From Microbacterium capsulatum (GTDB lineage Bacteria > Actinomycetota > Actinomycetes > Actinomycetales > Microbacteriaceae), in NCBI RefSeq assembly GCF_030865425.1, contig NZ_JAVFCB010000002.1:248001-312000 (forward strand): 64,000 nucleotides of DNA, in the 5' to 3' direction. The notes under the pieces are model-generated. The model did not search any database and was not told the origin of the DNA. It saw only the letters and a program-made list of their open reading frames with translations. Position 1 is the first letter of the stretch; each line of letters begins with the position of its first letter. Shown here piece after piece: positions 1 through 27,326 of the stretch. Both the position numbers and the translations under genes were made by a program.

Positions 1-912
1 CAGGCACGAGAGATGGTCGGAGTTGTCGGCGAGTCCGGAAGCGGCAAGAGCACACTGGCGAAGGTCCTCCTGCGACTCCAGCCCGAGAACGATGTCGACG
101 TCGCAGGAGAGGTGCGACTCAAGGGCGAGGATCTCCTCGCCGCCGCGCCTCAGCGCCTCCGCAAGATCCGCGGCGGCGGCATCGGGATGGTGCTCCAGGA
201 CGCGATGGTGAGCCTCAACCCGACATTGACGATCGGCTTCCAGCTCATCGAAGGGATCCGCGCGCATCGCGACGTCTCCCGAGCGCAGGCCAAGAAGATC
301 GCCATCGAACTGCTCGAACTCGTCGCGCTGCCGGATCCCCCGCGGCACATGAAGCAGTACCCGAGGCAGCTGTCAGGAGGCATGCGACAGCGGGTGGCTC
401 TCGCGATCGGCATCTGCGCCGAGCCGTCCGTCCTCATCGCCGACGAGCCGACCAGCGCTCTTGACGTGACCGTGCAGCGCCAGATCATGGAGCTGCTGCG
501 CTCGTTGCAGCGACGCCTGGGAATGTCGGTGATCTTCATCACCCACGATCTGGATCTCGCGAGCGAGTTCTGCGACCGTGTGGCGGTTCTGTATTCCGGA
601 CGCATCGTCGAGTCCGGCACGGCGCAGGAGATCTTCAACGCTCCGCTCATGCCGTACACCGCGGGGCTCATCAACTGCACCCCGCGCATGGATTCGTCGA
701 AGGAGGCGGATGCGCATCTGCCGTCCGTGAGGGGCAGCATCGCCGACAGCTGGGCGGCGCGCGCAAGCTGTCGCTTCGCTCCGCGATGCGATTTCGCGCG
801 TGAGGTCTGCTTCGGCGGCGAGCCCTTGCTGACCTTGCGAGAGGAAAGCGGCCATGTCGCGCGCTGCTGGGGCACGGAGCCGGAAGGGTGGATCGATGAG
901 GCTCGTCGATGA
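1..912 (+). CDS. Dipeptide/oligopeptide-type ABC transporter ATP-binding protein (DppD/OppD-like), 5' end cut by window
   Basis: Cytoplasmic ATPase that would power a peptide/nickel/opine-type ABC importer. The reading frame is open to the first base, and Walker A (GESGSGKST) begins only about ten residues in, whereas the family has roughly 35 residues before it, so the true start lies upstream. Further along are the signature LSGGMRQRV, Walker B VLIADEPTSALD and the switch histidine in FITHDLDL. The C-terminal extension carries the family's cysteine pattern (CRFAPRC, then a later C and RCW), as in OppD/DppD proteins. It overlaps the next ATPase gene by 17 bases, as expected for a D-F pair. 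The permease and binding-protein genes must lie left of the window. The substrate cannot be read from the ATPase. Confidence 0.93.
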   Translation, partial: QAREMVGVVGESGSGKSTLAKVLLRLQPENDVDVAGEVRLKGEDLLAAAPQRLRKIRGGGIGMVLQDAMVSLNPTLTIGFQLIEGIRAHRDVSRAQAKKIAIELLELVALPDPPRHMKQYPRQLSGGMRQRVALAIGICAEPSVLIADEPTSALDVTVQRQIMELLRSLQRRLGMSVIFITHDLDLASEFCDRVAVLYSGRIVESGTAQEIFNAPLMPYTAGLINCTPRMDSSKEADAHLPSVRGSIADSWAARASCRFAPRCDFAREVCFGGEPLLTLREESGHVARCWGTEPEGWIDEARR

Positions 913-1741
913 CCGGCCCATTCTCGAGGTGCGTGGTGTATCGCTCGCCTACTCGAGCGGCAAGCTCTTCAGCAGGCGGAACGAGCGCGCTCTCGCCGTG
1001 GACGACGTCAGCCTCGTGATCCGCCGCGGCGAGGCGCTCGGCATCGTGGGGGAGTCGGGGAGTGGCAAGAGCTCCCTCGCCAAGATCATCACGGGACTCG
1101 TCCCGCCCGACACGGGGTCGGTGATCTTCGACGGAACGGATCTCCTGCGGACGAAGGGCGCCGCTCGGCGCAAGCTGGGCAGACGACTGCAGATGGTGTT
1201 CCAGGATCCGTACTCGAGCCTCAACCCCACGATGACGCTCCAGCAGCTCGTCACCGAGCCGCTCGTGATCCATGGGCTCGCCCATGGGGCAGAAGAACTC
1301 GAACGGCGATGCGTGGAGATCCTGGAACAGGTCAGCATCGACCCGGGCTGGCGGCGGCGATATCCCGGGGCGCTCTCCGGTGGGCAGCGGCAGCGCATCG
1401 CGATCGCGCGGGCGCTGGCTTCCTCCCCGGACCTCATCGTCTGCGACGAGCCGGTGTCCGCGCTGGACGCCTCGATCCGGGCCCAGGTCCTGAACGTCCT
1501 CGTCGATCTGCAGCGCGACCACGGCGTCGGCACGCTCTTCATCGCACACGATCTCGCGATCGTGCGTCACGTGTGCGACCGGGTCGCGGTCATGCACAAA
1601 GGCCGGATCGTCGAAGTGGTCGCCGCCGCCGACATCCCCGACAAAGTGCAGCATCCGTACACCAAGGCTCTCCTCGCAGCGAACCCATCACCGCTCCGTG
1701 CCGCCGATCCCCCGGGCGGTGAAGGGCGCCGACTATCGTGA
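896..1741 (+). CDS. Dipeptide/oligopeptide-type ABC transporter ATP-binding protein (DppF/OppF-like)
   Basis: Second ATPase of the same importer, 281 residues. ATG at 896 is preferred over an in-frame ATG at 854 because GGAAGGG lies just upstream and the family's usual N-terminus (ILEVRGVSLAY) follows directly. Motifs in order are Walker A GESGSGKSS, the Q-loop FQDPYSSLNP, signature LSGGQRQRI, Walker B LIVCDEPVSALD and the switch histidine IAHDLA. The C-terminal tail is short and lacks the cysteine motif seen in its partner. The following regulator begins 41 bases downstream, so this pair may be transcribed into the regulator and catabolic genes. Confidence 0.93.
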   Translation: MRLVDDRPILEVRGVSLAYSSGKLFSRRNERALAVDDVSLVIRRGEALGIVGESGSGKSSLAKIITGLVPPDTGSVIFDGTDLLRTKGAARRKLGRRLQMVFQDPYSSLNPTMTLQQLVTEPLVIHGLAHGAEELERRCVEILEQVSIDPGWRRRYPGALSGGQRQRIAIARALASSPDLIVCDEPVSALDASIRAQVLNVLVDLQRDHGVGTLFIAHDLAIVRHVCDRVAVMHKGRIVEVVAAADIPDKVQHPYTKALLAANPSPLRAADPPGGEGRRLS

Positions 1742-1782
1742 CGTTCAGACCGACACACATCGATAGACCCGGAGGCACGCCG

Positions 1783-2610
1783 ATGAGCGCGAACACCGAC
1801 CCCGCAGGTGGCGAGGCACACGTCGATGACATCGCGGACTCGATGATCGGGGAGTACCTCTCGCTGCTCTCGGACCGCGACGCCATGGAGATCACGGCGC
1901 TCGACGTGCTCGCGAAGGCAGACGGTCCCGTCGGATCCTCCCGCCTCTGGAAGGCCTGGGCCGAGTACGGCATCGTGCGTGGACAGGCCACGGCCGGGAG
2001 GCTCCTCGACCAGTTCGAGGTGAGTGGATACTCCAAGGGGGCGGGGCCGAATGCCGGCCGAACCATCACGAGCGCAGGTCTGAAACGGCGTGACGAACTC
2101 GTCCGCTTCCTCAGCCGCCGGAGGCTCAGCCGCGAGATCATCGAGGCGGCGGACGCGTCCGTGGTGTCCGAGCTCGTCGACGTGCTGCACGCTCGCCGAG
2201 GTCTCGAGAGCGAAGCGGTCCGCCTCGCGGCCGAGCGCGCGAGCGTCATCGAAGTGACCGAGCTCTTGAACGCCGCCAATGATCACCTTCGCCATGTCGA
2301 AGACGGAGGTGAAGTCGAGACCGACGAGTCGCGCAGCTTCCACATGGCTCTCGTGCGCCTCTCCCACAACGAGGTGATCATCTCGACGCTTCGCCTTCTG
2401 CTGGAAGGAGTGAACCCTGATCTGCAGACGACGCTGCAGGAGGCGACGGAACTCCGCAAGGCGACAGTTCCGCAGGCGATGGATCACCAGGCGATCCTGG
2501 AGGCGATCCTGGCCCGCGACGGGGACCGCGCAGCACGGCTCGTCGAGCAGCACTTCACCGAACTCATCGCGATCAGCGAATCCATCAAGCTTCCGAACCC
2601 GGCCGGGTAA
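1783..2610 (+). CDS. FCD-domain transcriptional regulator with a non-GntR winged-helix N-terminus
   Basis: Probable one-component repressor, 275 residues. Residues about 25-95 look like a winged helix (DGPVGSSRLWKAW, then QATAGRLLDQF and RTITSAGLKRRDEL). This resembles the NrpR/RNase R type more than the classical GntR helix-turn-helix. The rest is an FCD ligand/metal-binding domain with conserved histidines (SFHMALVRLSHNE, MDHQAI, EQHF). ATG at 1783 was chosen because GGAGG sits seven bases upstream. An ATG at 1738 would extend it by 15 residues and overlap the ATPase gene. A paralogue of the same build lies at 10882-11628, so the two bracket the cluster. The ligand is probably a pathway intermediate, but this is inference. 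Confidence 0.85.
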   Translation: MSANTDPAGGEAHVDDIADSMIGEYLSLLSDRDAMEITALDVLAKADGPVGSSRLWKAWAEYGIVRGQATAGRLLDQFEVSGYSKGAGPNAGRTITSAGLKRRDELVRFLSRRRLSREIIEAADASVVSELVDVLHARRGLESEAVRLAAERASVIEVTELLNAANDHLRHVEDGGEVETDESRSFHMALVRLSHNEVIISTLRLLLEGVNPDLQTTLQEATELRKATVPQAMDHQAILEAILARDGDRAARLVEQHFTELIAISESIKLPNPAG

Positions 2611-2652: not shown

Positions 2653-3570
2653 ATGACACGCACAGAGATCCGGATCGGGTCGGCACCGAATCTGGCATAC
2701 GCGCCGCAGTACGTCGCCGTGTCACGAGGCTACTTCCGGGATGCCGGCGTGGATGTGCGCATCATCGGCGCTCCGCCGGGCTCGAGCGACATCGTCACGC
2801 AGCTCGTTCGCGGCGAGATCAACGTGGTGCTCGGGAGCCTGCTCTTCGCGCATCGGATGGACGTCGTCACCCGCGGCAACGCCAGGATCGTATCTGGCGC
2901 GAACGCGAACAGTCGGCACGTGCTCATGGCACGCAACGGCGAGTTCGTCGACGGGATCGACTGGGCGGATCTCCGCGGCACGGTCGTGAACATCGCGCCC
3001 ACGTTCGTCCCGACGTCGTGGTTCGCCTTCAGGGAAGGCCTTCGTCGGCACGGGCTCACCCTCGAGGACGTGCCCACGCTCGTCGGGTTCCAGTCGCAGC
3101 ATGTCATCCAGGAGTTTCTCGACGGCGCCGGCGACCTTCTCTTCATCGGGGGAGAGGAAGGACAGCATCCCGATCTGCACCGCGTCGCCACGATGGCCGA
3201 CGGATACGGCCCGGTGCCCTGGAGCGTCTACTGCGCGGCAGCGGACTGGGCTGACTCCCACACGGAGGAACTCGTCGCGTTCCGCCAAGGCATCAACAGG
3301 GGCATGCAGTGGGTGTTCGAAGCAGACATCGACGAGATCGTCGCCCAACTGAGCCCCGACTTCCCCGCGCTGGACGACGGGAAGATCGCGGACACGATAC
3401 GGAGCTACCGTGAGATCCCGTTCTGGGCGCGCACCGCCGAAATCGATCTCGCGGCGCTCGAAGGATGGCAGGACGCGCTGATCCGCTGGGGGATGCTCGC
3501 CGCGGGAACGGACCTGTTGAAGCTGGCCGGTGCATGTCCGTCGGGCGGTCCCGCGAAGCGCCTCGGTTGA
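2653..3570 (+). CDS. NMT1/THI5/SsuA-fold substrate-binding-like protein without signal peptide
   Basis: A 305-residue protein of the NMT1/THI5-like periplasmic-binding-protein fold. It opens directly into the mature fold (IRIGSAPNLAYAPQYVAVSRGYF), followed by typical elements (DIVTQLVRGEINVVLG, then DLRGTVVNIAP and QEFLDGAGDLLFIGGEE). There is no signal peptide or lipobox. Only 42 bases separate it from the preceding stop, so no exported N-terminus is hidden upstream. AAGAGAG precedes the ATG. Some proteins of this fold are cytosolic enzymes (THI5; 4,5-dihydroxyphthalate decarboxylase), so an enzymatic or intracellular binding role is possible. No matching permease lies beside it. Confidence 0.8.
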   Translation: MTRTEIRIGSAPNLAYAPQYVAVSRGYFRDAGVDVRIIGAPPGSSDIVTQLVRGEINVVLGSLLFAHRMDVVTRGNARIVSGANANSRHVLMARNGEFVDGIDWADLRGTVVNIAPTFVPTSWFAFREGLRRHGLTLEDVPTLVGFQSQHVIQEFLDGAGDLLFIGGEEGQHPDLHRVATMADGYGPVPWSVYCAAADWADSHTEELVAFRQGINRGMQWVFEADIDEIVAQLSPDFPALDDGKIADTIRSYREIPFWARTAEIDLAALEGWQDALIRWGMLAAGTDLLKLAGACPSGGPAKRLG

Positions 3571-3584
3571 CAATCCCTCTTTTC

Positions 3585-3608
3585 TGCATCATCATTGATG
3601 ATCAAGAA
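3585..3608. promoter_or_regulatory. Candidate operator: palindrome upstream of the hydrolase operon
   Basis: ATCATCA at 3589-3595 and TGATGAT at 3597-3603 form a perfect 7-base inverted repeat with one base between. The surrounding 22 bases match the element at 9225-9246 at about 19 positions. It lies 11-34 bases before the ATG at 3619, where a repressor would block transcription or initiation. Binding by one of the two local FCD regulators is inference. Confidence 0.5.
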
Positions 3609-3618: not shown

Positions 3619-4572
3619 ATGGACGAACGCTTCAACGAGGTCGGTCCTCAGCGAGACCTCATCGGTTATGGACGGGTCAAGCCGCGAGTCACGTGGCCGC
3701 AGAACGCGTCGCTCGTCGTGAACTTCTGCATCGCGTACGAAGAGGGCGGTGAGCGCTCGGTACTGTACGGCGACGAACGGGGGGAGAGTCTCGGCCCCGG
3801 ATACCCGATGGATGCCGGTCGACGGGACCTGGCAGTCGAGTCGATCTTCGAGTACGGCAGCCGTGCGGGGATCTGGCGCCTGGCGGACCTGTTCGATGAG
3901 CACGCCGTCCCCGTGACGCTGTTCGCGCCCGCTCTCGCGCTCGAGAAGAACCCCGAGGTGTGCGGCTGGGTCGCCGAGCGCGGTCACGACATCTGCAGCC
4001 ACGGATGGAAGTGGATCGAGCCCTGGTTGCTGTCCGAGGAGGAGGAGCGCCGCCAGATCGCGTGGGCGTACGAGTCGATCGAACGCAGTGTGGGGCGGCC
4101 TCCGTCCGGATGGCGCTCCCGGACGGGGCCCAGCATCCGCACCCGGCGGCTCTTGGCCGAGCACGGCGGCTTCCTCTACGACTCCGACAGCTACAGCGAC
4201 GATCTGCCTTACGTGACCACGGTCGAGGAGAAGGAGCACCTGGTGGTGCCCTACACGCTGACGTACACGGAGGGCCGACTGGTGCAGCCGGTCGGCTTCA
4301 CCAGCCCGGAATCCTTCTGGTCGACCTGCATCGCCGGCATGGAAGAACTCACGCGCGAAGGACGTCAGGGCTTCCCGAAGATGATGTCGATCGGCGTCCA
4401 TCCCCGGCACACAGGCCAAGCAGGGCGCATGACCGGCCTGCGGACCCTGCTGGAGCGGGCCGAGGAGCTCGGCGACGTCGCCTTCGTCACCCGCGAGACG
4501 ATCGCCCGCCATTGGCTGGAGCATCGGCCCGACCTCATTACGAAGACCACCGCGACGGGAGCACGCGCATGA
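3619..4572 (+). CDS. PuuE-type allantoinase family protein (polysaccharide-deacetylase fold)
   Basis: A 317-residue homologue of cofactor-independent allantoinase PuuE, which opens cyclic amides such as allantoin. Family hallmarks recalled from PuuE are present in order: RDLIGYG, NFCIAYEEGGERSVLYGD, EYGSRAGIWRL, the NodB-like GHDICSHGWKW, RTGP, GGFLYDSDSYSDDLPY, VVPYTLTY and IARHWLEH near the C-terminus. ATG at 3619 has AAGAAGG eight bases upstream and is preferred to the ATG at 3595, which lies inside the palindromic operator. It overlaps the next gene by ATGA. No uricase or other urate-pathway gene is visible, so the natural substrate may be a different hydantoin-like or cyclic amide compound. 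Confidence 0.88.
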   Translation: MDERFNEVGPQRDLIGYGRVKPRVTWPQNASLVVNFCIAYEEGGERSVLYGDERGESLGPGYPMDAGRRDLAVESIFEYGSRAGIWRLADLFDEHAVPVTLFAPALALEKNPEVCGWVAERGHDICSHGWKWIEPWLLSEEEERRQIAWAYESIERSVGRPPSGWRSRTGPSIRTRRLLAEHGGFLYDSDSYSDDLPYVTTVEEKEHLVVPYTLTYTEGRLVQPVGFTSPESFWSTCIAGMEELTREGRQGFPKMMSIGVHPRHTGQAGRMTGLRTLLERAEELGDVAFVTRETIARHWLEHRPDLITKTTATGARA

Positions 4573-6026
4573 CCGAAACGACAACGACCAGGGCGCTGCG
4601 TCGCGACGCCTTCATCGGCGGGCGCCATGTCTCCGCCGCCGAGACCTTCCCCGTCTACGATCCGTCCACCGGCGAGCTCCTCGCGGAAGTGGCACGAAGC
4701 ACCACGGCAGAGGTGGACCTCGCTGTCGATGCGGCACGGAAAGCGTTCGACGGCGGATGGAAGCGGACGACCGCGGCCCAACGGGCGAAGATCCTGCGCT
4801 CGGTGGCGGACGCCATCGCAGCGCACGAGGAGGAACTGGCCCTGCTGGAGAGCCGCGACACCGGCAAGCCGTTGCGACAGGCGCGCGTGGATGTGGGCTT
4901 CGCGGTCCGCTTCTTCGAGTACTACGCGAGCATGGTCGAGGCCGTGTTCGGCCATGTCCTCCCTGCGTCGACCGACCGCATCACTCTCGCGATGCGCGAG
5001 CCCTACGGTGTCACGGGCCACATCATCCCGTGGAACTACCCGATCGGGATCGGCACCCGCACCATCGCCCCCTCGCTCGCCGCAGGGAACTGCGTCGTCC
5101 TCAAGCCGGCGGAGGAAGCGCCGCTGTCGTGTCTGCGGCTCGCGGAGATCATCCATGAAGCAGGCGTTCCTGCAGGCGTTCTCAATGTCGTTCCCGGGCT
5201 CGGCTTCGAAGCGGGCGCGGCCCTGTCCGGTCACCCCGGAATCGACCGGATCTCGTTCACCGGCTCAGTGCCCGTCGGCATCGCCGTCGCGCAGGCCGCG
5301 GCGCTGAACCTCGTGCCCGCGGATCTCGAGTTGGGCGGCAAATCTCCGAACCTCGTCTTCGCGGATGCCAACCTCGACCTGGCGGCGGACGTCGTCGCTC
5401 AGTCGATCCTGCAGAACGCGGGACAGACGTGCTCGGCCGGCGCGCGGCTCCTCGTGGAGCGCAAGATCCACGAGGAGTTCGTCGACAAGGTGGCGACGCG
5501 CTTCCGTCGCACAACCCTCGGTCCGGGACCGCAGGACCCCGGGATGGGGCCGGTGATCTCGCGCAAGCAGCAAGGACGCGTGCTCGACTACATCTCGCTC
5601 GGGCGTGAGGAGGGCGACCTCATCGTCGGCGGCGGCGTACCCGACGACGAACGGCTCGCTGCGGGGAACTTCGTGGAGCCGACCCTGTTCGACGGCGTGC
5701 CGGCCGATGCGCGCATCGCACAGGAGGAGATCTTCGGCCCAGTACTGACGGTGACGAGCTTCGACGACACGGACGAGGCGATCCGGCTCGCGAACGGAAC
5801 GGAGTACGGACTGGTCGCGGGAGTCTGGACCTCTCACGTGGGACGTGCGCATCGTCTCATTCGTGACCTCCGCTGCGGGCAGGTCATGGTCAACACGTTC
5901 TCGAACGGCGTCGAGCTTCCGTTCAGCGGGCGCAAGCGCTCGGGATACGGCGTCGAGAAGGGCTGGGAGTCGCTGATCGCGTTCACCCAGGTCAAGGGGG
6001 CCGTCGTGATGATGACCGATGACTGA
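4569..6026 (+). CDS. NAD(P)+-dependent aldehyde dehydrogenase
   Basis: A 485-residue member of the ALDH superfamily that oxidises an aldehyde to a carboxylate. The cofactor-site motif IIPWNYPIGIG, the general-base glutamate in LELGGKSP (about E254) and the nucleophile in NAGQTCSAGARL (about C288) are present, and EEIFGPVLTV and ELPFSGRKRSGYG follow. The start ATG overlaps the previous stop (ATGA). A longer open frame beginning at 3960 is only an out-of-frame extension across the hydrolase gene. Its place between two cyclic-amide hydrolases suggests it oxidises a semialdehyde released during breakdown. The substrate is not readable. Confidence 0.92.
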   Translation: MTETTTTRALRRDAFIGGRHVSAAETFPVYDPSTGELLAEVARSTTAEVDLAVDAARKAFDGGWKRTTAAQRAKILRSVADAIAAHEEELALLESRDTGKPLRQARVDVGFAVRFFEYYASMVEAVFGHVLPASTDRITLAMREPYGVTGHIIPWNYPIGIGTRTIAPSLAAGNCVVLKPAEEAPLSCLRLAEIIHEAGVPAGVLNVVPGLGFEAGAALSGHPGIDRISFTGSVPVGIAVAQAAALNLVPADLELGGKSPNLVFADANLDLAADVVAQSILQNAGQTCSAGARLLVERKIHEEFVDKVATRFRRTTLGPGPQDPGMGPVISRKQQGRVLDYISLGREEGDLIVGGGVPDDERLAAGNFVEPTLFDGVPADARIAQEEIFGPVLTVTSFDDTDEAIRLANGTEYGLVAGVWTSHVGRAHRLIRDLRCGQVMVNTFSNGVELPFSGRKRSGYGVEKGWESLIAFTQVKGAVVMMTDD

Positions 6027-7428
6027 GCGGATGACCGATCCCGGATCCGACACGTTCGTCGTCGGCGGAGGCCGCCTGGTCCTGCCGGAGCGCGTCGTGG
6101 ACGCAGACCTGTGGGTCGAGGACGGTCGGATCGTCGACGTGATCCCGCGCGGCCACCGGCCGGAGCTGCCGCGTGTGCCGGCCGACGGGCTTGTCGTGAT
6201 GGCGGGCATGATCGACACGCATGTGCACCTCCGAGACCCGGGGCATCCCCATCGGGAGACCTTCGCGAGCGGCACGCGCGCCGCCGCACGCGGCGGGGTG
6301 ACCACCGTCCTGGAGATGCCGTCGGGCATTCCCGCCGTGTCCGATGCGGAGAGCTGGCAGGGAAAGAACGAGATCGTCGCGCGCAAGGCGGTCGTGGACT
6401 ATGGGCTGTACGGCGGGGCGGGTCTCAGCAACCTCGACCGGATCGGCGAGCAGGCCGATGCGGGAGCCGTCGCCTTCAAGTCCTTCATGAATGCGCCCGC
6501 ACCCACCGCGGATCCGGGGATGTCGAGTCGGTGCCTGCCCGACGACGCGGTCTTCCTCGAGGCCATGCGGCGCGTCGCTGCGACCGGCCGTGTGGCCGTC
6601 GTGCATGCAGAGAACGACGCGATCTGCACCCACCTCACGCATCGTCTGCGAGCGCAGGGGAGGGACGATCTGCGCGCGCACGCGGAGTCCCGTCCCGTAG
6701 TCGCGGAAGAGGAGGCGGTATCGCGCGCGATCCTGCTCGCCCATCGTGCAGGCGTGCGGCTCTCCATCGCGCATGTCAGCTCCGCTGCCGCAGTGGACGC
6801 CATTCGTCGCGCCAAGAGGAATGGCCATGACGTGACTGCCGAGGTCTGTCCCCACCATCTCCTGCGGAGCCTCGACGACGCCGAGGAGCTCGGCCCGTAC
6901 GCCAAGGTCAACCCGCCTCTGCGCGATGACGAGGATCGTGCCGCTCTGTGGCTGGGGCTCCGCGACGGCACACTGGACTTCATCGGCACCGATCACGCCC
7001 CGTACTCCGAGGCGGAGAAGGATCGCGGATGGGAGAGCATCTGGGATGCTCCGCCGGGCATCCACGGCCTGGAGGCAGTGCTCTCCGTGCTCCTGACGGA
7101 GGCGCACGACGGGAGGTTCACGTTGCCCGAGCTCACAAGGATCGTGTCGCTCAACGCGGCCCGACGATTCGGTCTTGGGGGACGGAAGGGCGAGCTTCGT
7201 GCCGGTGCCGACGCCGACTTCGTGCTCGTCGATCCCGACGCACCCGGTGTGCTCGACCGGCGCAGCATGGAATCGGTCAGTCGCGACGCGGCGCGTTTCT
7301 GGGACGGGCGGAGGACGGTCGGCTGCGTGCTCACGACCTTCGTGCGCGGCACCCGCGTCGCTGATCGCGGCGTCGTGGTCGGAAACGAGGGCTTCGGCCG
7401 ACTCGTGCGTCCCGAGCGAGCGGAGTGA
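6019..7428 (+). CDS. Dihydroorotase/allantoinase (AllB)-like metal-dependent amidohydrolase
   Basis: A 469-residue cyclic amidohydrolase of the dihydroorotase-allantoinase-hydantoinase family. It keeps a complete binuclear site: MIDTHVHLRDPGHP (HxH), the lysine that would be carboxylated in AFKSFMN, histidines in VVHAEND and SIAHVSS, and the aspartate in FIGTDHAPYS. The C-terminus has the usual beta-sandwich residues (GADADFVLVDPD). It overlaps the ALDH gene by eight bases and the next gene by GTGA. It is not likely to be the pyrimidine-pathway PyrC, because the context is catabolic and AllB-like features (CPHHL, YAKVNPPLR) are strong. It is an evolutionarily unrelated second ring-opening hydrolase in an operon that already has a PuuE-type one. 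Confidence 0.9.
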   Translation: MTERMTDPGSDTFVVGGGRLVLPERVVDADLWVEDGRIVDVIPRGHRPELPRVPADGLVVMAGMIDTHVHLRDPGHPHRETFASGTRAAARGGVTTVLEMPSGIPAVSDAESWQGKNEIVARKAVVDYGLYGGAGLSNLDRIGEQADAGAVAFKSFMNAPAPTADPGMSSRCLPDDAVFLEAMRRVAATGRVAVVHAENDAICTHLTHRLRAQGRDDLRAHAESRPVVAEEEAVSRAILLAHRAGVRLSIAHVSSAAAVDAIRRAKRNGHDVTAEVCPHHLLRSLDDAEELGPYAKVNPPLRDDEDRAALWLGLRDGTLDFIGTDHAPYSEAEKDRGWESIWDAPPGIHGLEAVLSVLLTEAHDGRFTLPELTRIVSLNAARRFGLGGRKGELRAGADADFVLVDPDAPGVLDRRSMESVSRDAARFWDGRRTVGCVLTTFVRGTRVADRGVVVGNEGFGRLVRPERAE

Positions 7429-8474
7429 GCGCCACGGCACACGTGGTCATCGTCGGGGGAGGGAGCATCGGCCTGGCGGCGGCCGTGGACCTCACTCGAC
7501 GCGGGTACAGGATCGACGCGATCATCGAAGCGGATCAGCACCGCGCCGCGTCCCTGCGCTGCGCCGGACGGATCCGGCTGACAGGGCTGATCGGCGACGG
7601 CGAGCTGCCGGATCCACCCGTGTCCTCCTCGTGCGACGCCGTTTCCGAGGCGGACACGGTCCTCATCGCGACCACCGCCGACCGCTACGAACACGTCGCT
7701 CAGGGGATGGCGAACCACGTCTTCGCGCGTCAGCTCGTCGTCCTGGCCACCGGGTATGTCGGCGGGGCCGCTCGTTTCGCGGCAGCCCTACGCCGCCACG
7801 GAACAACGATCGCCGACACGCCCGCGATCTTCGCTCTCAATACATCGCCTTATCTGTCCTACGCCGATGGCCAGGGAGCGGTGCACGTCGCCGCGGCCAA
7901 ATCGTGGATGGAGGCTACGGCGGTCAGTCCTGGAATCGCGAAGACGCACGCGGATGCGATCGCTTCGCTGTTCCCGGGATGTGTCGTCGCGGACGAGCAA
8001 ATGGCGTCGTCCCTCAACAATCCCAATCCCATCGCGCACGTGCCGGCCTACGTGCTCAACGCGACGCAGGCGCAGAACGAAGCCGCCGGACGGATCCCTG
8101 CGGGCGGGGCCTTCCACCTCTCGGACGTCACCAGTGTGCAGCTGGAGAATCTCCGCACGCGCCTGGACGACGAACGGCTGGAGGTCATGGCCGCGCTCGG
8201 ATTCGCCTCGCTCGCCTTGTCCCGCGGCGACTTCGGCAACCGCGCCTATGGCCCCGGAGCTCGGGAGGCCTCGCCTCCACGAATCGGCCCGACCTTCCAG
8301 CGACGGTTCCTCGTCGAGGATGTCCCCTTCGGCCTCATCCCTCTTGAAATGCTGGCTCAGCGGACGGGAACCCCCGTGCCGAGCATCACCGGACTCATCG
8401 ACCTCGTCAACGGGATGACCGGTGTCGACTACCGCGCGGCGGCTCCGGCTCTCGCAGATCTGGGGGTCGTATGA
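7425..8474 (+). CDS. Octopine/nopaline dehydrogenase-family NAD(P)-dependent oxidoreductase
   Basis: A 349-residue protein with an N-terminal Rossmann motif (HVVIVGGGSIGLAAAVDL). The second domain is of the octopine/nopaline dehydrogenase type, carrying the NNPNPIAHVPAYVLN segment, whose histidine corresponds to the family's catalytic His. Such enzymes join or split an amino acid and a 2-oxo acid through a secondary amine; many family members have unknown substrates. The start is GTG, overlapping the preceding stop as GTGA. In this operon it could oxidatively cleave an N-substituted amino acid released by the hydrolases. That role is inference. Confidence 0.85.
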   Translation: MSATAHVVIVGGGSIGLAAAVDLTRRGYRIDAIIEADQHRAASLRCAGRIRLTGLIGDGELPDPPVSSSCDAVSEADTVLIATTADRYEHVAQGMANHVFARQLVVLATGYVGGAARFAAALRRHGTTIADTPAIFALNTSPYLSYADGQGAVHVAAAKSWMEATAVSPGIAKTHADAIASLFPGCVVADEQMASSLNNPNPIAHVPAYVLNATQAQNEAAGRIPAGGAFHLSDVTSVQLENLRTRLDDERLEVMAALGFASLALSRGDFGNRAYGPGAREASPPRIGPTFQRRFLVEDVPFGLIPLEMLAQRTGTPVPSITGLIDLVNGMTGVDYRAAAPALADLGVV

Positions 8475-9205
8475 CCGGTCGAACGTTCATGGACGCGCGT
8501 GTGGCGATCACAGGCGGAGCCCGTGGGATCGGGTTGGCGCTCGCGAAGCATTTCGCCGCGCGCGGAGCGGTCGTCACGATCATCGACATCGACGGTGACG
8601 AGGCGCGCCGGCGTGCGGCAGATCTGGATCGTGCGATCGGCATCGAGCTCGACGTGTCGCGCACCGATGCGACCATGCGGTTCTTCCAGGAGACGGCCGA
8701 GCCGTTCGACGTCGTGATCGCGAATGCCGGCGTCTCCCTCCCGCGTACGCCGGCCGTCGACCTGACCGAACCCCAGTGGGACTGGCTGATCGATCACAAC
8801 CTCAAGGGTGTCTTCAACACGATCAGCTCAGCCGCCGTGCGGATGCGGTCGGAGAAGCACGGGGGCCGCATCATCGCGACAGCGTCCGTCGCCTCCGTCG
8901 TCGCAGAGCCGGGCTTCGCCGCCTACGCTGCGGCCAAGTGGGGCGTGCTCGGCTTGGTGAAGGCCATGGCCATGGAACTGGTCGAGGACGGCATCCTCGT
9001 CAACGCGGTCTGTCCGGGTGACGTCCGCACGCGCTTTCTCGACGAGACGGCGCCGCCGTCGGCCAGCAGCGGGCCACTCGGCCGGCCAGCGGATGTCAGC
9101 GAGATCGTCGGCATCTACGACCTTCTCGCCGGCCCCGCCGGCAGCTATCTCGTGGGGGAAGCGATCGTCGTCGACGGTGGTCTTTCGCTGACGGCGCTGG
9201 CATGA
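8471..9205 (+). CDS. Short-chain dehydrogenase/reductase (SDR)
   Basis: A classical SDR of 244 residues. The cofactor motif is TGGARGIG, the fold marker is VIANAG, the active-site region is TASVASVV followed by YAAAKWG (YxxxK), and VCPGDVRT and VVDGG complete the pattern. An aspartate after the second strand (IIDIDGD) favours NAD(H) over NADP(H). The start overlaps the previous stop (ATGA). It is the last gene of the tight hydrolase operon; 120 bases containing a palindrome separate it from the MFS gene. The substrate alcohol or ketone is unknown. Confidence 0.9.
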   Translation: MTGRTFMDARVAITGGARGIGLALAKHFAARGAVVTIIDIDGDEARRRAADLDRAIGIELDVSRTDATMRFFQETAEPFDVVIANAGVSLPRTPAVDLTEPQWDWLIDHNLKGVFNTISSAAVRMRSEKHGGRIIATASVASVVAEPGFAAYAAAKWGVLGLVKAMAMELVEDGILVNAVCPGDVRTRFLDETAPPSASSGPLGRPADVSEIVGIYDLLAGPAGSYLVGEAIVVDGGLSLTALA

Positions 9206-9224: not shown

Positions 9225-9247
9225 TGCTTCATCACTGATGATGAAGT
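9225..9247. promoter_or_regulatory. Candidate operator: palindrome upstream of MFS gene
   Basis: CTTCATCA (9227-9234) and TGATGAAG (9239-9246) form a perfect 8-base inverted repeat with a 4-base spacer. It closely matches the element at 3585-3608. It lies in the 119-base gap between the SDR and the MFS gene, about 80 bases before the start at 9325, a normal distance for an operator over a promoter. This implies shared control of import and catabolism. Confidence 0.55.
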
Positions 9248-9324: not shown

Positions 9325-10758
9325 ATGTCCACGTCCAATATCTCGACGCCGGCGGGGAGCCTGCAGCGTCGGTACCTGAAGCTTGCCGAGTCGATCGATC
9401 GGATTCCCATCGGTCGCACTCACCGGGTGGTGATCCTCCTCGTCGCCGCCGGAATGTTCTTCGACATCCTGGAATCGAACGGGCTCGGCGCATCGGGCCC
9501 GTCCATCATCGCGACGTTCGGCATCACCAAGCCAGAGTTCGCTCTCATCAGCTCGGCAACGTACGTCGGTCTCGCGATCGGCGCCTACTTGGCCGGGTGG
9601 ATCGCCGACCGGCGCGGACGCAAGTTCTCGCTCGTGCTGAATCTGCTGATCTACACGATCGGCGGCGTCGCGTGCGCTCTCGCCCCGAGCTACAGCTTCC
9701 TGATGGGCGCTCGATTCGTCGTCGGACTCGGGCTCGGTGGCGAGCTCGCCGTGGGTATCGCACTGGTCAGCGAGATCATGCCCACGCGGCGTCGCGCCAG
9801 CGCGGTCGCATCGCTGAACGCCTTCGCGGGCGGCCTCGGCAACCTTGTCGCTCCCGCGTACGCGTGGCTCATCCTCGTCGGATTCGGAACGGTGTTCGGT
9901 GGCGTCACCGAGAGCTGGCGCTGGCTCTTCGGCCTGCTGCTGATCCCGGCGTTCCTCGTCGTCTTCATCCGGCGCGGGATGCCCGAGTCCCCGCGCTACC
10001 TCCTGGCGCGCGGAGACGTCAACGGCGCCAACCGCAGCCTGGCCTCTCTCGCCCGGGGCAGTGTCCCGAACGACGAGATCTTCCTGACCGACCTGAACGA
10101 ATCCGTCATCCAGGACGTTCAGGCGGAGCGGTCGCGACTCGTCGAGATCTTCCAGCTCCCGCTTCTCCGCCGCACGCTCACCGCCAGCGGCGCCTACTTC
10201 ATGGTCGTCGGCGCCCAGATGTCGCTCGTGACCCTCATGCCCACCTTCCTCGTGGCGCGCGGGTCTACGCTCGGTCAGAGCCTGGTGTACACCCTGATCA
10301 TGCAGACCGGAAGCTTTGCCGGCGCGCTCGCGGCCATGTACACCCAGCGCTGGCGCCGGCGTCGGGTGCTCGTCGTCGCCGCGATCCTCGGCTGCATCGT
10401 CGGCGTGGGATTCGGCCTCTCGGCCGGCAGCGACACCGCTGTTCTCATCCTGGGTTCGCTCTTCCAGTTCTTCGTGCTGCTCGCCACCACCACGATCTGG
10501 TCCTGGGCACCGGAGCTGTTCCCGACGCGCGTGCGTGGATTCGGTGTCTCGTTCGTCAAGGGAACCGGGGGTGTGGGTATCATCGCCATCCCGCCGCTGA
10601 TCGCGGTCGTCTTCGGCGCAGGCGGGCTCGGAGCCGTGTTCCTCGTCATGGCCGCCATGTTCGCGTGTATCGCCGTGTTCGGCGCTCTCGGTGTCGAGAC
10701 CAAGGGGGCGACTCTCGAGGACGTCAACGAGGCGCGCAGCGAGATCGATGCGATCTGA
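9325..10758 (+). CDS. MFS transporter (sugar-porter/NiaP-like)
   Basis: A 477-residue inner-membrane transporter with about 12 hydrophobic helices. The signature loop GWIADRRGRKFSL lies between helices 2 and 3, RFVVGLGLGGELAVG after it, and the MPESPRYLLARG motif sits after helix 6, as in the sugar-porter and NiaP branches. GAGGAG lies about ten bases before the ATG. It is a separate transcription unit from the hydrolase operon but shares a palindromic element with it, so it probably imports the substrate or a related compound. The substrate cannot be named. Confidence 0.9.
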   Translation: MSTSNISTPAGSLQRRYLKLAESIDRIPIGRTHRVVILLVAAGMFFDILESNGLGASGPSIIATFGITKPEFALISSATYVGLAIGAYLAGWIADRRGRKFSLVLNLLIYTIGGVACALAPSYSFLMGARFVVGLGLGGELAVGIALVSEIMPTRRRASAVASLNAFAGGLGNLVAPAYAWLILVGFGTVFGGVTESWRWLFGLLLIPAFLVVFIRRGMPESPRYLLARGDVNGANRSLASLARGSVPNDEIFLTDLNESVIQDVQAERSRLVEIFQLPLLRRTLTASGAYFMVVGAQMSLVTLMPTFLVARGSTLGQSLVYTLIMQTGSFAGALAAMYTQRWRRRRVLVVAAILGCIVGVGFGLSAGSDTAVLILGSLFQFFVLLATTTIWSWAPELFPTRVRGFGVSFVKGTGGVGIIAIPPLIAVVFGAGGLGAVFLVMAAMFACIAVFGALGVETKGATLEDVNEARSEIDAI

Positions 10759-10881: not shown

Positions 10882-11628
10882 CTATGCATCGTGGTCGAGA
10901 GCCTGGTAGTCGGTCGCCGATTGGAGGAAGTGCGAGAGGTGCTCACCGGTCAGGCGTGACGCGCGCTCGGCGTCCCGAGCCGCCATGGCCTTCGCTATCT
11001 CGATGTGCTCTTCCGCCTGCCGCCGGATGGAATCCGAGCGAAGGGAGACTTCTTCGCCGCTACGCAGTCGCTGCGCGTTCGTGGGATCGAGCAGCATCGC
11101 GGCAACCGACACGAGCACAGGATTGTGTGAGGCCGTCGCGATCGACATGTGGAACTGGCTCGAGCCGAGGGCTGTCGGAACCTCGCCGCGGTCAACGGTT
11201 CGCAGATCTTCGATCGCGCCCGCGAGAATCGTCGCGAGCTCCTCGTCGGTCGCCGCGACGGCGGCAAGCCCCGCGGCTTCGGCTTCCAGCCCGCGCCGCA
11301 CTTGAAGCACTGCGATGAGGTCTTCCAATTCGGCGGCGCGAATCGCTTCTGCGACATTGGCGCCGTGTTCGTGCAGCGACATCGACCGCTGCAGTTCGTC
11401 CAGGCGCTGGCGGCCTTGAGAGGTGATCGTCCGACCCTGTTTCGTCCCGGCTGTCGCGATGAGTCCGGCGGCCTGCAACGCGTGAAGGTATCGACCAGCG
11501 GTAGCCTCCGCGACCGGAATCTCCTGGGCGCGCAAGGCATTGGCCAGCCTCTGCGACCCGACAGGGCCTTCGGCCTCGGACAGGAAGGAGAGCACCGCCA
11601 GTTCGACGTTGCCCGGCGGTGTACTCAT
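10882..11628 (-). CDS. FCD-domain transcriptional regulator, paralogue of the one at 1783
   Basis: A 248-residue regulator with the same architecture as the 1783-2610 product: a non-GntR winged helix (EGPVGSQRLANALRAQ, ATAGRYLHALQ, GRTITSQGRQRLDEL), then an FCD domain (VRRGLEAEAAGLAA, SSQFHMSIATASHNP, EEHIEIAKAM, GEHLSHF). The start ATG at 11628 has no ribosome-binding site, but TATCCT ends six bases upstream, fitting a leaderless transcript. An ATG at 11667 would add 13 residues across that promoter. It probably controls the neighbouring MFS and hydrolase genes. Confidence 0.85.
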   Translation of the reverse strand: MSTPPGNVELAVLSFLSEAEGPVGSQRLANALRAQEIPVAEATAGRYLHALQAAGLIATAGTKQGRTITSQGRQRLDELQRSMSLHEHGANVAEAIRAAELEDLIAVLQVRRGLEAEAAGLAAVAATDEELATILAGAIEDLRTVDRGEVPTALGSSQFHMSIATASHNPVLVSVAAMLLDPTNAQRLRSGEEVSLRSDSIRRQAEEHIEIAKAMAARDAERASRLTGEHLSHFLQSATDYQALDHDA

Positions 11629-11640
11629 GGGACCAGGATA
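11629..11640 (-). promoter_or_regulatory. Leaderless-type promoter of the FCD regulator
   Basis: On the minus strand TATCCT (11640-11635) is followed by six bases and then the ATG at 11628. The same arrangement recurs at least seven more times in the window. No Shine-Dalgarno sequence is present. Confidence 0.55.
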
Positions 11641-11656
11641 GTTGGATGACTCCGGC

Positions 11657-11683
11657 CGACCTTGCATCCGTCAGCCAAGGTCG
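11657..11683. repeat. Inverted repeat between the two regulator genes
   Basis: CGACCTTG and CAAGGTCG form an 8-base inverted repeat with an 11-base loop. It lies in the 217-base gap between the end of the nan-type operon and the start of the FCD regulator. It could be a weak terminator for the operon ending at 11846 or an operator just upstream of the regulator's -10. Nothing else was recognised in this gap. Confidence 0.4.
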
Positions 11684-14629: not shown

Positions 14630-15690
14630 TGTCGCCCCTCCGCCGCGACCGCGTTCGCGCGCAAGGCGGTGCGGGCAGCGGTGGCCGGATGTTCGGTGAG
14701 GACGGTCGACGATCCCTGCACGGCCGCAGCGATCTCGTCGAGCTCGCAGGTCACGGCGGTGCGCATCCACAACGGGCCGGGTCCGCCCGTGTTGTACGCC
14801 TGCGCGGCCTGCGCGGCCTCGCGCAGCGAATCGTTCGATGCGTCGTCGTCGAACACGCCGGTCACGTCGACGACCGCGCCGTCGACGAAGCGGGTGACGG
14901 TGCCGGCGCGGAAGTCGGCCTCGACGCTCGCGTCGGTGCCGGAGATCCGGAACCACCACTCGGCCCGATGTGCGGACGTCGAGATGCTGTGACGGCCGAG
15001 CGCGCCGTCCGCGGTCCGCAGCACCGTCTCGGTGACGCTGTCCACGATGTGCGCGCCGTGCGCCAACGGCGCCCCGGACACGCCGACCACGCCGACCACG
15101 CTCGCGGGCTCGCCCAGCGCCCACACGACGAGGTCGAGCTCGTGGATCTCGTGCAGCAGCTCGCCGCCGCTGCGACTCCGATCCAGCTTCCACCAGTCGC
15201 CCGGGTCGGCCGGGACGTGCACGAGCCTGCGGCGGGCACCGGCGGCCTCGATCAGGGTGCCGAGCGCGCCGCCGCGCGCCTGCGCGACCATGCGTCGCAC
15301 CCCGGGGAACGCGCGCATCACGTGTCCGACGACGAGCCGGCCGGGGGCGTCCTCGGCGGCGGCGAGGATCGCGTCGATCGAGTCGGCGTCGATGCCGAGC
15401 GGCTTCTCCACGAACACGTGCTTCCCGGCCCGAAGACCCGCGATCGCGGGGTCGGCGTGCAGATGGTTCGGCGTGGCGACGACGACGAGATCCACGTCAT
15501 CGGCCGCGGCCAGCGCCTCGGCACCGCCGTGCACCCGGGCGCCGAGAGCGGTGGCGAGGCGTTCGGCCGCCTCGGGTACGGCGTCGGCGACCGCGGTCAC
15601 CGAGAACGCGCCGTGCTCGTCGCAGGCACGGGCGATCATCGCTCCGAAGAAGCCGGCGCCCACCACGCCGACGCGGATCGATCCGTTCAT
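14626..15690 (-). CDS. Gfo/Idh/MocA-family oxidoreductase
   Basis: A 354-residue paralogue with a standard cofactor motif (VGVVGAGFFGAMIARA), ATPNHLH, EKP (HVFVEKPLGID) and a substrate domain containing SGGELLHEIHELDLVVWALG, whose histidine-rich HEIHELD segment is also seen in the 22438-23562 product. It starts with ATG at 15690, overlapping the stop of the upstream ATPase (ATGA). The shared segment suggests that this protein and the one at 22438 act on related substrates from opposite arms of the locus. The reaction is not established. Confidence 0.9.
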   Translation of the reverse strand: MNGSIRVGVVGAGFFGAMIARACDEHGAFSVTAVADAVPEAAERLATALGARVHGGAEALAAADDVDLVVVATPNHLHADPAIAGLRAGKHVFVEKPLGIDADSIDAILAAAEDAPGRLVVGHVMRAFPGVRRMVAQARGGALGTLIEAAGARRRLVHVPADPGDWWKLDRSRSGGELLHEIHELDLVVWALGEPASVVGVVGVSGAPLAHGAHIVDSVTETVLRTADGALGRHSISTSAHRAEWWFRISGTDASVEADFRAGTVTRFVDGAVVDVTGVFDDDASNDSLREAAQAAQAYNTGGPGPLWMRTAVTCELDEIAAAVQGSSTVLTEHPATAARTALRANAVAAEGRQ

Positions 15691-16691
15691 GCGGCACCCC
15701 CGACCACGACAGGGCGGCCGGCGTCCAGCGGGTGATAGCACCGTGCCGTGTGCAGCGGCAGCTCGCCGAACCGGGTCACCGGCGGCATCTCGGTCGCGCA
15801 CTGCTCGGTCGCCTTCCAGCACCGGGTGCGGAACGGGCAGCCGGACGGCGGACGCACCGCCGACGGTACGGGACCCTCGAGGGTGATCGGCTCGATCTGC
15901 TCGACCAGGCTCGGCGTCGCCGACAGGAGCGCCTCGGTGTACGGGTGGCGCACCTGGGCGGGGACCGCCGTCGCGGGCGACTCCTCGACGATGCGGCCGA
16001 GATACATCGTGACGATGCGGTCGCTCATCCGGCGCACGGTCTGGATGTCGTGCGAGATGAACACCATGGCCAGATCGAACTCGGCCTTCAGCTCCAGCAG
16101 CAGGTTCAGGATCTGGGCGCGCACCGACACGTCGAGCGCGCTCGTCGGCTCGTCGGCGATCAGCACCGAGGGACGCAGCGCGAGCGCGCGCGCGATCGCG
16201 ACGCGCTGACGCTGACCGCCGGACAGCTGCGCGGGCAGGGCGTCGGCGGCGCTGGAAGGCAGGCCGACGAGATCCATGAGCTCGGCGACACGCGCCGTGC
16301 GCGCCCTCGCGTCGCCGACGCCGTGCACGGTAAGCGGGTCGCGAAGGATGTTCTTCACCGGCATGCGGCGGTTCAGAGCCGTGGAGGGATCCTGGAACAC
16401 CATGCCGACGTTGCGGCCGAACTGCGTGCGTCGGTCGCGAGTCGACATCGCCCACAGTGAGGAGCCGTGGAACAGCACCTCCCCGGAGGTGGGGCGCTGC
16501 AGCCCGACGATCGTCTTCGCGAGCGTGGACTTCCCGCAGCCCGACTCGCCGACCACGCCGACGGTCTCGCCGGCGCTCAGGACGAGGTCGGCGCCCGTGA
16601 GCGCGTACACGGTGTCCTTCGTGAACAGCTGGGCTCCGTTGATCCGATGCTGCACGTGCACGTCGCGCAGCTCGAGGATGGGCGAGGTCAT
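15687..16691 (-). CDS. Dipeptide-type ABC transporter ATP-binding protein (DppF/OppF-like)
   Basis: A 334-residue ATPase with Walker A GESGCGKST, the Q-loop FQDPSTALNRRM, signature LSGGQRQRV, Walker B VLIADEPTSALD and switch FISHDIQT. The C-terminal extension has the cysteine pattern CPFRTRCWKATEQC and a later CY, as in OppF/DppF. It pairs with the ATPase half of the fused gene just upstream, and both junctions are ATGA overlaps. In this context it would power uptake of sialic acid or a related sugar acid. Family-5-type importers for sialic acid are known from Haemophilus ducreyi and bifidobacteria. Confidence 0.92.
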   Translation of the reverse strand: MTSPILELRDVHVQHRINGAQLFTKDTVYALTGADLVLSAGETVGVVGESGCGKSTLAKTIVGLQRPTSGEVLFHGSSLWAMSTRDRRTQFGRNVGMVFQDPSTALNRRMPVKNILRDPLTVHGVGDARARTARVAELMDLVGLPSSAADALPAQLSGGQRQRVAIARALALRPSVLIADEPTSALDVSVRAQILNLLLELKAEFDLAMVFISHDIQTVRRMSDRIVTMYLGRIVEESPATAVPAQVRHPYTEALLSATPSLVEQIEPITLEGPVPSAVRPPSGCPFRTRCWKATEQCATEMPPVTRFGELPLHTARCYHPLDAGRPVVVGGAA

Positions 16692-19608: not shown

Positions 19609-19633
19609 GGGGGATTCCTATCAGATCGTGTGT

Positions 19634-19663
19634 GGCCGGGGCGCCGGGCGGGACGCCCCGGCC
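19634..19663 (-). terminator. Intercistronic hairpin between binding-protein and permease genes
   Basis: GGCCGGGGCG (19634-19643) pairs perfectly with CGCCCCGGCC (19654-19663) around a 10-base loop. It has no T run. It lies just after the lipoprotein gene and before DppB, where such hairpins commonly reduce read-through or protect the upstream transcript so that the binding protein is made in excess. Confidence 0.6.
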
Positions 19664-19671
19664 GGAGACGC

Positions 19672-21288: not shown

Positions 21289-21338
21289 TGCTGTTCCTTT
21301 CGGGAAAGGGTGCCGGAGGGACGGAGGCGAATGCCCAA

Positions 21339-21353
21339 CATAGGACGTCCCAC
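21339..21353. promoter_or_regulatory. Candidate NanR-type operator, proximal to the leftward operon
   Basis: TAGGACGTCCCA at 21341-21352 contains the self-complementary core GGACGTCC. It lies about 55 bases before the GTG of the lipoprotein gene and matches TAGGACATCCCA at 21468 in 11 of 12 positions. Confidence 0.5.
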
Positions 21354-21467
21354 CTCTCGAAAACAAGAACGTAGATCACCGGGACCGATCCGTCAATAGT
21401 GATCGGGGCGGCCTCCGAAAAGCCTCATTGACGCACTCTCCAGGTTTTGCCATACTGCTCAAGTCGG

Positions 21468-21486
21468 TAGGACATCCCACGTCCTA
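21468..21486. promoter_or_regulatory. Candidate NanR-type operator, proximal to the rightward operon
   Basis: TAGGACATCCCACGTCCTA is an inverted repeat of TAGGAC/GTCCTA around seven bases. It is 26 bases before the GTG at 21512. Its left half repeats the site at 21341. Two copies flanking a divergent promoter suit the FadR-type regulator at 11846-12574; binding is inferred. Confidence 0.55.
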
Positions 21487-21511
21487 TAACCCGGGATTCC
21501 GAAGGAGAATC

Positions 21512-27266: not shown

Positions 27267-27326
27267 GGGATGCTCCTCACTTCGGCGGCGGCCGCCGAAT
27301 CGTCCACCTGCGGGTACTCTGCGCGA

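Follow-up and report, generated by a model that had tools for sequence, protein, structure and literature searches.

The pairing of an opine dehydrogenase with putative ring-opening enzymes on Ti plasmids appears to be the nearest precedent in kind for the locus described here, a five-gene operon in a 64,000-nucleotide stretch of the Microbacterium capsulatum genome (hereafter the window). The operon encodes a PuuE-like and an AllB-like cyclic amidohydrolase, an aldehyde dehydrogenase (ALDH), an octopine-dehydrogenase-family enzyme (ODH) and a short-chain dehydrogenase/reductase (SDR). It forms part of a larger set: on the upstream side stand two M19 dipeptidase-like genes, the genes of a Dpp-type importer, and those of an FCD regulator and an NMT1-like protein, and on the downstream side an MFS transporter gene. 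The opine region of pTiEU6 carries an NAD-dependent opine dehydrogenase together with hydantoinase/oxoprolinase A and B genes, the latter being suggested to open lactam opines, and the role of the dehydrogenase is not clarified in the available part of the source (PMC6733357). Both systems thereby hold an octopine/nopaline-type dehydrogenase and putative ring-opener genes in one region, but the Ti ring-openers are of the hydantoinase/oxoprolinase A/B type and those of the cluster of the AllB and PuuE types, and ALDH, SDR, M19 and NMT1 proteins are not among the parts that these sections describe for Ti opine regions (PMC6733357). The Agrobacterium plasmid ODHs are 24-27% identical to the window enzyme (best 40 of 124 ODH records). 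We read the operon, with a probability of roughly 0.45, as supplying the enzymatic half of an inducible regulon that breaks down a small cyclic amide other than urate or allantoin itself, namely a cyclic ureide, an imide or an opine lactam. That the locus is a catabolic regulon is very likely, and so is its not serving urate; a cyclic-amide substrate is probable, and this would be of hydantoin, dihydropyrimidine, imide or pyrrolidone type and would probably carry a carboxylate or a peptide-like group.

The window spans positions 248001-312000 of contig C10, in a genome of 3.99 Mb (3,988,377 bases, 17 contigs). In the open reading frame (ORF) calls, the five core genes are intact and uninterrupted, all on the plus strand between 3619 and 9205, with successive overlaps of 4, 8, 4 and 4 bases:

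3619-4572, plus strand: PuuE-like NodB-fold cyclic amidohydrolase, putative accessory member (PF01522, TIGR03212 profile)
4569-6026, plus strand: ALDH (PF00171, 537.8 bits)
6019-7428, plus strand: AllB/dihydroorotase/hydantoinase-type binuclear-metal cyclic amidohydrolase (PF01979, TIGR03178, TIGR00857)
7425-8474, plus strand: octopine/nopaline-dehydrogenase-family NAD(P) enzyme, ODH, with a GTG start (PF02317, 64.7 bits against a Pfam gathering cut-off of 30)
8471-9205, plus strand: SDR (PF13561/PF00106)

An earlier sequence-only reading had proposed these five genes, their positions and their layout as one operon with overlapping ends, all of which the ORF calls confirm; the family names that it gave are returned likewise by the Pfam and NCBIfam profiles. 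The M19 genes (which lie outside the window), the importer, the NMT1 protein, the regulator, the MFS gene and the operator are additions to that finding. The grouping appears to be more than chance, because two other genomes have ALDH, AllB, ODH and SDR in this same order and a common operator ties the genes to their neighbours.

Other described routes share single features with the locus. Urate and allantoin catabolism (uricase, HIUase, OHCU decarboxylase, AllB or PuuE, allantoicase or AllC) has the AllB and PuuE families in common with it, but its other genes were not noticed in the regulon and lie on contig C11 with an allantoinase of their own. To our knowledge the ALDH, the octopine-dehydrogenase family, the M19 proteins and the NMT1 protein have no counterpart in that pathway. 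Hydantoin utilisation in Arthrobacter joins an N-carbamoylase to an L-hydantoinase (1gkr) that is the best solved relative of the AllB-like protein (293.8 bits), whereas the cluster shows no evident carbamoylase or racemase gene and AllB reads HVHLRDPG in place of HVHIIDMD. The ergothioneine route by way of hydantoin-5-propionate also concerns a hydantoin with a carboxylate side chain, and its ErtD profile matches AllB at 295.8 bits, but this is far under the ErtD cut-off of 650 and no other ergothioneine gene was noticed. The window PuuE-like protein is much nearer PuuE than 3qbu (241.9 versus 46.8 bits), the latter being, as far as the available part of the source goes, the closest structural homologue of HxnM, a proposed cyclic imidase and distant PuuE relative (PMC9304392). 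The Aspergillus nicotinate pathway to which it belongs (HxnM, HxnW dehydrogenase, HxnN amide hydrolase) resembles the locus in combining a deacetylase-fold imide opener with dehydrogenases, but no AllB or octopine dehydrogenase is described in those sections (PMC9304392).

We found no description of this combination of families in the open-licence literature, where 'octopine dehydrogenase' and 'allantoinase' together gave 0 papers; the enzymes belong to known families and seem to fit no described pathway that we found. The claim of the sequence-only reading that no such pathway is described therefore stands for these families, but has to be qualified by the precedent in kind on Ti plasmids, as presented in the available sections of PMC6733357.

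The gene order is shared with another genome of the genus (G120), which reads M19-M19-DppABCDF-FCD-NMT1-ALDH-AllB-ODH-SDR, with PuuE missing between NMT1 and ALDH. In Paenarthrobacter histidinolovorans JCM 2520 (L074) the arrangement is FCD(-)/PuuE-ALDH-AllB-ODH-SDR-MFS-NMT1-M19-class V aminotransferase. All three clusters hold M19, NMT1, ALDH, AllB, ODH and SDR, while PuuE and MFS are each found in two of the three; the whole G120 genome has no PuuE match at E<=0.001, and its stretches L043 and L044 have no MFS homologue at 1e-15. PuuE is best regarded as an accessory member of the set. Identities to G120 reach 81% for M19a, 84% for M19b, 71-78% for the Dpp genes (76.5% for ATPase 1 and 77.5% for ATPase 2), 61% for FCD and 73% for NMT1, then 61% for ALDH, 62% for AllB, 42% for ODH and 58% for SDR. 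Those to Paenarthrobacter are 67% for PuuE, 69% for ALDH, 64.5% for AllB, 47-48% for ODH, 57% for SDR, 40% for NMT1, 50-54% for M19 and 64% for the collinear MFS, and the FCD regulator of the window has homologues in both genomes. As judged from identities rather than from a tree, the left part is nearest G120, ALDH, AllB and ODH are somewhat nearer Paenarthrobacter and SDR is about equally close, which hints at a mosaic.

The gene set looks conserved but rare. An orthologous ODH (E<1e-70) occurs in 2 of 198 genomes of the genus, the own genome included, and the other 41 of the 43 genus genomes with an ODH match gave weak, mostly N-terminal partial matches. At E<=1e-15, ODH matches were obtained in 8 of 396 genomes of the order and 23 of 396 of the phylum, all but the own genome being at most 31% identical, and in the genus of G966 the ODH profile (E<=1e-40) retrieved G966 itself (1/150). 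A contig scan with two short peptide patterns, which may miss diverged orthologues, gave three ODH relatives among 152 pattern matches, namely L074 and two loci from metagenome-assembled genomes (MAGs) at 28-30% identity. The NMT1 profile (E<=1e-35) found the own genome only among 347 genomes of the order and 346 of the phylum; G120 was not among these matches, so that the draws are sparse and the result speaks of rarity, not absence. No copy of the set was present in the plasmid neighbourhoods opened (3 of 36 NMT1, 3 of 459 PuuE, 4 of 317 M19 and 3 of 124 ODH records), which were mixed and held amidases, hydantoinase/oxoprolinase genes, Asp/Glu racemase, aspartase and transporters; AllB relatives occur in 1042 plasmid records.

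Around the core lie the following genes, the stretch upstream of the window being designated L008:

C10:240752-241873 (L008 10752-11873): M19a, M19 dipeptidase-like (PF01244)
L008 11923-13152, strand opposite to the M19 genes: MFS gene between M19a and M19b
C10:243416-244519 (L008 13416-14519): M19b, M19 dipeptidase-like (PF01244)
C10:244516-246063: DppA-like binding protein, lipobox-like N-terminus by eye
13-912, plus strand: Dpp/Opp-type ABC ATPase 1, 3' part, the gene starting upstream of the window near C10:247875
896-1741, plus strand: Dpp/Opp-type ABC ATPase 2 (PF00005, on 854-1738; the longest ORF starts at 854, and 896 is used)
1738-2610, plus strand: FCD-domain regulator, candidate repressor of the regulon (PF07729, 72.1 bits)
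2653-3570, plus strand: NMT1/THI5-like protein (PF09084; N-terminus MTRTEIRIG)
9325-10758, plus strand: MFS transporter, aromatic-acid/H+ symporter-like (PF07690)
10882-11667, minus strand: second regulator of the same type as 1738-2610 (BLAST)

Two permeases and two ATPases follow the DppA-like gene and complete the Dpp-type importer ahead of the FCD regulator, of which Pfam recognises the FCD half only. The second regulator is 41% identical to the regulator adjoining PuuE in Paenarthrobacter (L074 5232-6176), whose closest counterpart it is. The NMT1/THI5-like protein shows no visible signal sequence and is presumably cytosolic. Against TIGR00895 the MFS transporter of the window scores 160.6 bits, under the cut-off of 418.55.

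The M19a gene, the M19b-DppABCDF-FCD-NMT1 unit and the window MFS gene are probably one regulon together with the five genes, because they share a palindrome, TCATCA-N4-TGATGA, ahead of them. The genome of 3,988,377 bases contains four exact copies of it, and none of the reversed pattern used as a control; three of the four fall in the cluster, ahead of M19a, of the M19b-Dpp unit and of the MFS gene. The sites of the own genome are these:

C10:240614: operator, exact, upstream of M19a
C10:243228: operator, exact, between M19b and the divergent MFS gene
window 9229-9244 (C10:257229): operator TCATCACTGATGATGA, exact, upstream of the window MFS gene
window 3589-3604: operator TCATCATTGATGATCA, one mismatch, ending 15 bp before the PuuE-like start codon
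C15:248569-248584: fourth exact palindrome, within or near an amidohydrolase-like ORF

A second one-mismatch match at 3586 overlaps the PuuE site, and four other sites elsewhere in the genome match with one mismatch. Paenarthrobacter has exact palindromes ahead of PuuE/FCD (6100) and MFS (11893), and G120 has one-mismatch palindromes ahead of M19a (11516) and M19b (10142). Eight operator sites are listed in all, and the expectation by shuffling is 0.01-0.04 per stretch.

The AllB-like protein keeps the binuclear-metal motifs HVH, FKSFM, VVHAEN, IAHVSS and GTDHAP in alignments, and in this superfamily the HxH, Lys, His, His and Asp residues of these motifs serve as metal ligands. Around them it resembles dihydroorotase, with HVHLRDPG...ET (HVHLREPG...ET in 3mpg versus HTHISEPG...EG in the allantoinase 8hfd) and KVNPPLR (KMNPPLR versus KCSPPIR), and its score of 286.8 bits lies above the TIGR00857 dihydroorotase cut-off of 279.05. 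It is 32.5% identical to the canonical allantoinase on C11. Its closest paralogue in the genome, at 52%, is found near 270 kb of C1. An NMT1 homologue (33%) and an amidase come after this paralogue, and ahead of it stand an allantoicase-family gene (257.6 bits, below the cut-off of 277.9), RidA and a serine hydrolase:

L106 10038-17750 (C1, about 266-274 kb): paralogous cluster with amino-acid ABC importer, serine hydrolase, RidA, allantoicase-family gene, AllB, NMT1, amidase and GntR

Because this paralogue also adjoins an NMT1 homologue, the AllB-NMT1 pairing appears to recur, in a ureide-like context, and the C1 cluster is possibly a second undescribed ureide route.

The PuuE-like protein has 1z7a and 3cl6 as its best solved relatives but scores 289.2 bits against TIGR03212, under the cut-off of 424.6. 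Its N-terminal half agrees with 3cl6, while the characterised motifs SHGYRWIDY and HCRLIGRPAR are replaced by SHGWKWIEP and HPRHTGQAGR. Two more PuuE-family genes, 36 and 43% identical to it, lie on C14 (178-190 kb, L095), accompanied by an amidase, an amidohydrolase and an isochorismatase-like gene named by eye.

The M19 proteins belong to their family by a wide score (230.8 and 210.7 bits against PF01244, cut-off 26) and depart from its classical metal site. In M19 dipeptidases an N-terminal HxD, a bridging Glu and later His, His and Asp residues serve as metal ligands. The renal-dipeptidase Glu ligand aligns with Gln in M19b, as it does in 2i5g, and all five M19 proteins of the three clusters have Gln at the bridging-Glu position of the alignment. 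None of the five has an HxD in its N-terminal 280 residues, the corresponding place reading DTCG as assigned by eye in a stretch outside the renal-dipeptidase aligned range. The three canonical ligands of the HxD and the bridging Glu are gone, and the later His, His and Asp are retained. The same Gln was also seen in five aligned plasmid homologues from Alphaproteobacteria and one haloarchaeon, one of which, in Salipiger abyssi, lies near hydantoinase/oxoprolinase genes.

Building on the layout, the conservation, the operator-like sites, the families and the motifs, we propose an import route, an order of steps, a direction for the ODH and a kind of substrate. The FCD regulator would keep the units silent unless it has bound the substrate or an intermediate. 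The compound would enter through the Dpp-type ABC importer and/or the MFS transporter, the M19-like proteins would split off an amide-linked part, AllB would hydrolyse the ring C(O)-N bond and PuuE, where present, would open another ring form or widen the substrate range. SDR and ALDH could then oxidise an alcohol or aldehyde side group to the acid, and the octopine-dehydrogenase-type enzyme could oxidise a secondary amine (or alcohol) with NAD(P)+, giving an amine and an oxo-acid for central metabolism, while the NMT1 protein would have an intracellular role, either in binding or as an enzyme not recognised as such. The chances that the ODH performs an oxidative C-N cleavage are about even. 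More specifically, though tentatively and somewhat short of an even chance, the locus may represent a new pathway apart from the described ureide, hydantoin, imide and opine routes. Here a palindrome-binding FCD-type repressor would control a dihydroorotase-like hydrolase, two M19 proteins whose metal site is reduced and a cytosolic THI5-like protein that has a catalytic or ligand-delivery role of its own, which together would dismantle a carboxylated N-heterocycle, the final oxidative C-N cleavage falling to the octopine-dehydrogenase-family enzyme.

Several observations weigh against this reading. The ODH matches 1bg6 (E=3.7e-21), and His205 and Asp299, which we take to be the catalytic residues of the octopine/nopaline dehydrogenase family, are present in the window and in Paenarthrobacter, but the His is an Asn in G120. 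The AllB-like protein scores 364.1 bits against the TIGR03178 allantoinase profile, barely above the cut-off of 357.85, so that allantoin stays among the substrates that the score allows. In dihydroorotase an Arg binds the substrate carboxylate; of the three carboxylate-binding positions of that enzyme AllB matches only the Arg. Ser and Tyr stand where dihydroorotase has the partner Asn and His, so that a carboxylated substrate can be taken as no more than a lead. The roles given to the M19 and NMT1 proteins are guesses, and AlphaFold models of NMT1 and ODH from two-row alignments were discarded at predicted local distance difference test (pLDDT) scores of 40.4 and 41.4.

The regulatory part meets difficulties as well. 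No palindrome precedes NMT1-M19 in Paenarthrobacter or ALDH in the G120 stretch L044, and the G120 stretch L043 has none at all, hence none ahead of the AllB 3' part, ODH or SDR there. The longest M19b ORF of G120 would contain its palindrome, and the start used is an assumption. In the own genome the site beside M19b sits between divergent genes, either of which it may serve. The link between regulator and operator is presumed from proximity, an FCD protein being nearby in all three genomes. The C15 copy could be a further member of the regulon or a chance occurrence.

The urate route was rejected as the main reading of the locus, C11 holding these genes with their own allantoinase. Profile searches of the genome placed a uricase at C11:144.2-145.0 kb and an OHCU decarboxylase at 145.4-145.9 kb, with an HIU-hydrolase-like gene between them by eye. 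A canonical allantoinase (558.8 bits against TIGR03178) lies about 20 kb away, near genes identified by eye as allantoin racemase, NCS1 permease, glyoxylate carboligase, glycerate kinase and others. Three further OHCU-family matches fall on C14, C10 (58 kb) and C11 (254 kb). These searches gave no uricase or OHCU match inside the window, and inspection by eye of the ORFs over the size limit in the window and in L008 6000-20000 brought up no uricase, HIU hydrolase, OHCU decarboxylase or ureidoglycolate gene. The sequence-only reading had reported none of these genes as present and concluded that the operon is not the standard urate route. The conclusion is upheld by the set on C11, the absence is true of the window and the adjoining upstream stretch, and the genome as a whole does have a urate/allantoin set. 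Because C11 carries its own urate and allantoin genes, neither hydrolase of the operon seems to be needed for urate.

A second, divergent allantoin route would have AllB and PuuE open the two allantoin enantiomers, or methylated allantoins, with the oxidoreductases handling ureidoglycolate-like products. We consider this unlikely. The passing TIGR03178 score of AllB (364.1 against 357.85), the allantoicase-family gene (257.6, cut-off 277.9) beside its 52% paralogue on C1 and the PucR-type regulator near the module in P. histidinolovorans favour it, but the C11 set already has an allantoinase of 558.8 bits, the PuuE-like protein stays under its cut-off (289.2 against 424.6) with the C-terminal motif HPRHTGQAGR in place of HCRLIGRPAR, the regulon shows no evident OHCU, allantoicase or ureidoglycolate gene, and PuuE is unmatched in G120. 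That last observation also bears on the proposal of the sequence-only reading, in which the two hydrolases would successively open the rings of a two-ring or N-substituted hydantoin before an opine-like product is cleaved. Both hydrolases do share one operon in two genomes, where the octopine-dehydrogenase member has its His and Asp. G120, however, keeps an otherwise collinear cluster with ALDH-AllB-ODH-SDR and no PuuE match genome-wide (E<=0.001), so two ring-openings are not obligatory there and an obligatory two-ring substrate is weakened; we hold this reading to be improbable. As for the cleavage of an opine-like product, the octopine-dehydrogenase fold is indeed present, but the catalytic His is replaced in G120.

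A narrower form of the reading that we prefer takes the substrate to be either an opine of the lactam type or a glycation adduct derived from arginine: AllB would open the lactam or hydroimidazolone ring, the octopine dehydrogenase would split the carboxyalkyl-amine into an amino acid and a 2-oxo acid, and the Dpp importer and M19 proteins would serve peptide-linked forms. It accommodates the importer, the M19 genes, the octopine-dehydrogenase family and the ring-opener together. The carboxylate-binding Arg of AllB would suit a carboxylated lactam, in two MAG loci (L075, L076) ODH genes have genes for a Dpp-type importer as neighbours, and odh accompanies hydantoinase/oxoprolinase A/B genes, the proposed openers of lactam opines, in the pTiEU6 and nopaline Ti opine regions, to the extent that the source is available (PMC6733357). 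It is nevertheless a doubtful reading, built on gene logic: the Ti ring-openers are of a different family and what odh does there is, by that source, not settled (PMC6733357), ALDH, SDR and PuuE receive no step, the catalytic His is missing in G120, and a literature search on glycation adducts gave no such bacterial route among the matches listed. A reductive octopine-dehydrogenase-type enzyme, in a locus that makes and re-imports an opine-type metallophore, is very improbable. Opine metallophore systems do pair an opine dehydrogenase with a Dpp-like importer, and the CntF and CntD profiles match ATPase 2; these matches, at 174.6 and 170.9 against cut-offs of 385 and 380, led us to reject the candidate. 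No nicotianamine-synthase-like gene was noticed, no profile search being aimed at one, and two ring hydrolases, the ALDH and the M19 proteins would be left without a place.

Some further loci touch on these genes. In L075 and L076 the distant octopine-dehydrogenase genes lie beside DppA/DppC, with DppB too and two ODH copies in L076, and both are possible opine-uptake operons. The nearest plasmid NMT1 relative among the records (33.6%; Ensifer adhaerens pCTYH.Ch1_2, L077) stands ahead of an amidase and serine hydrolases and downstream of Asp/Glu racemase, asparaginase and aspartase genes and amino-acid importers; asparaginase also occurs in a Ti-plasmid succinamopine region, according to the available part of PMC6733357. 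Within the window, ureohydrolase-type (minus), PpnP-like (minus), PucR-type regulator (plus) and MFS (plus) genes, named by eye, occupy 26307-30449. Homologues of the last three (92, 59 and 76%) directly adjoin the PuuE module in Paenarthrobacter, as compared with a distance of about 17 kb in the window; these four genes (26.3-30.4 kb) were excluded as members of the set, no operator site being present there. The interval 15687-26237 holds by eye a second Dpp-type importer, Gfo/Idh dehydrogenases, a NanA/DapA-like lyase, a ROK kinase and a NanE-like gene, and looks like an amino-sugar or sialic-acid catabolic cluster.

The cluster is a defined and testable unit, its gene set being clear and accompanied by an operator sequence and a likely regulator, and it should let a nutrient that is still unknown and the route of its breakdown be identified. 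Such a pathway would give substrates to M19 proteins that have no classical metal site, to a signal-less THI5-like protein, and to relatives of AllB and PuuE that fall near 'allantoinase' in database profiles. It would also serve to test whether the pairing of an opine dehydrogenase with a ring-opener, so far a proposal for Ti plasmids, has an independent origin with hydrolases of other families.

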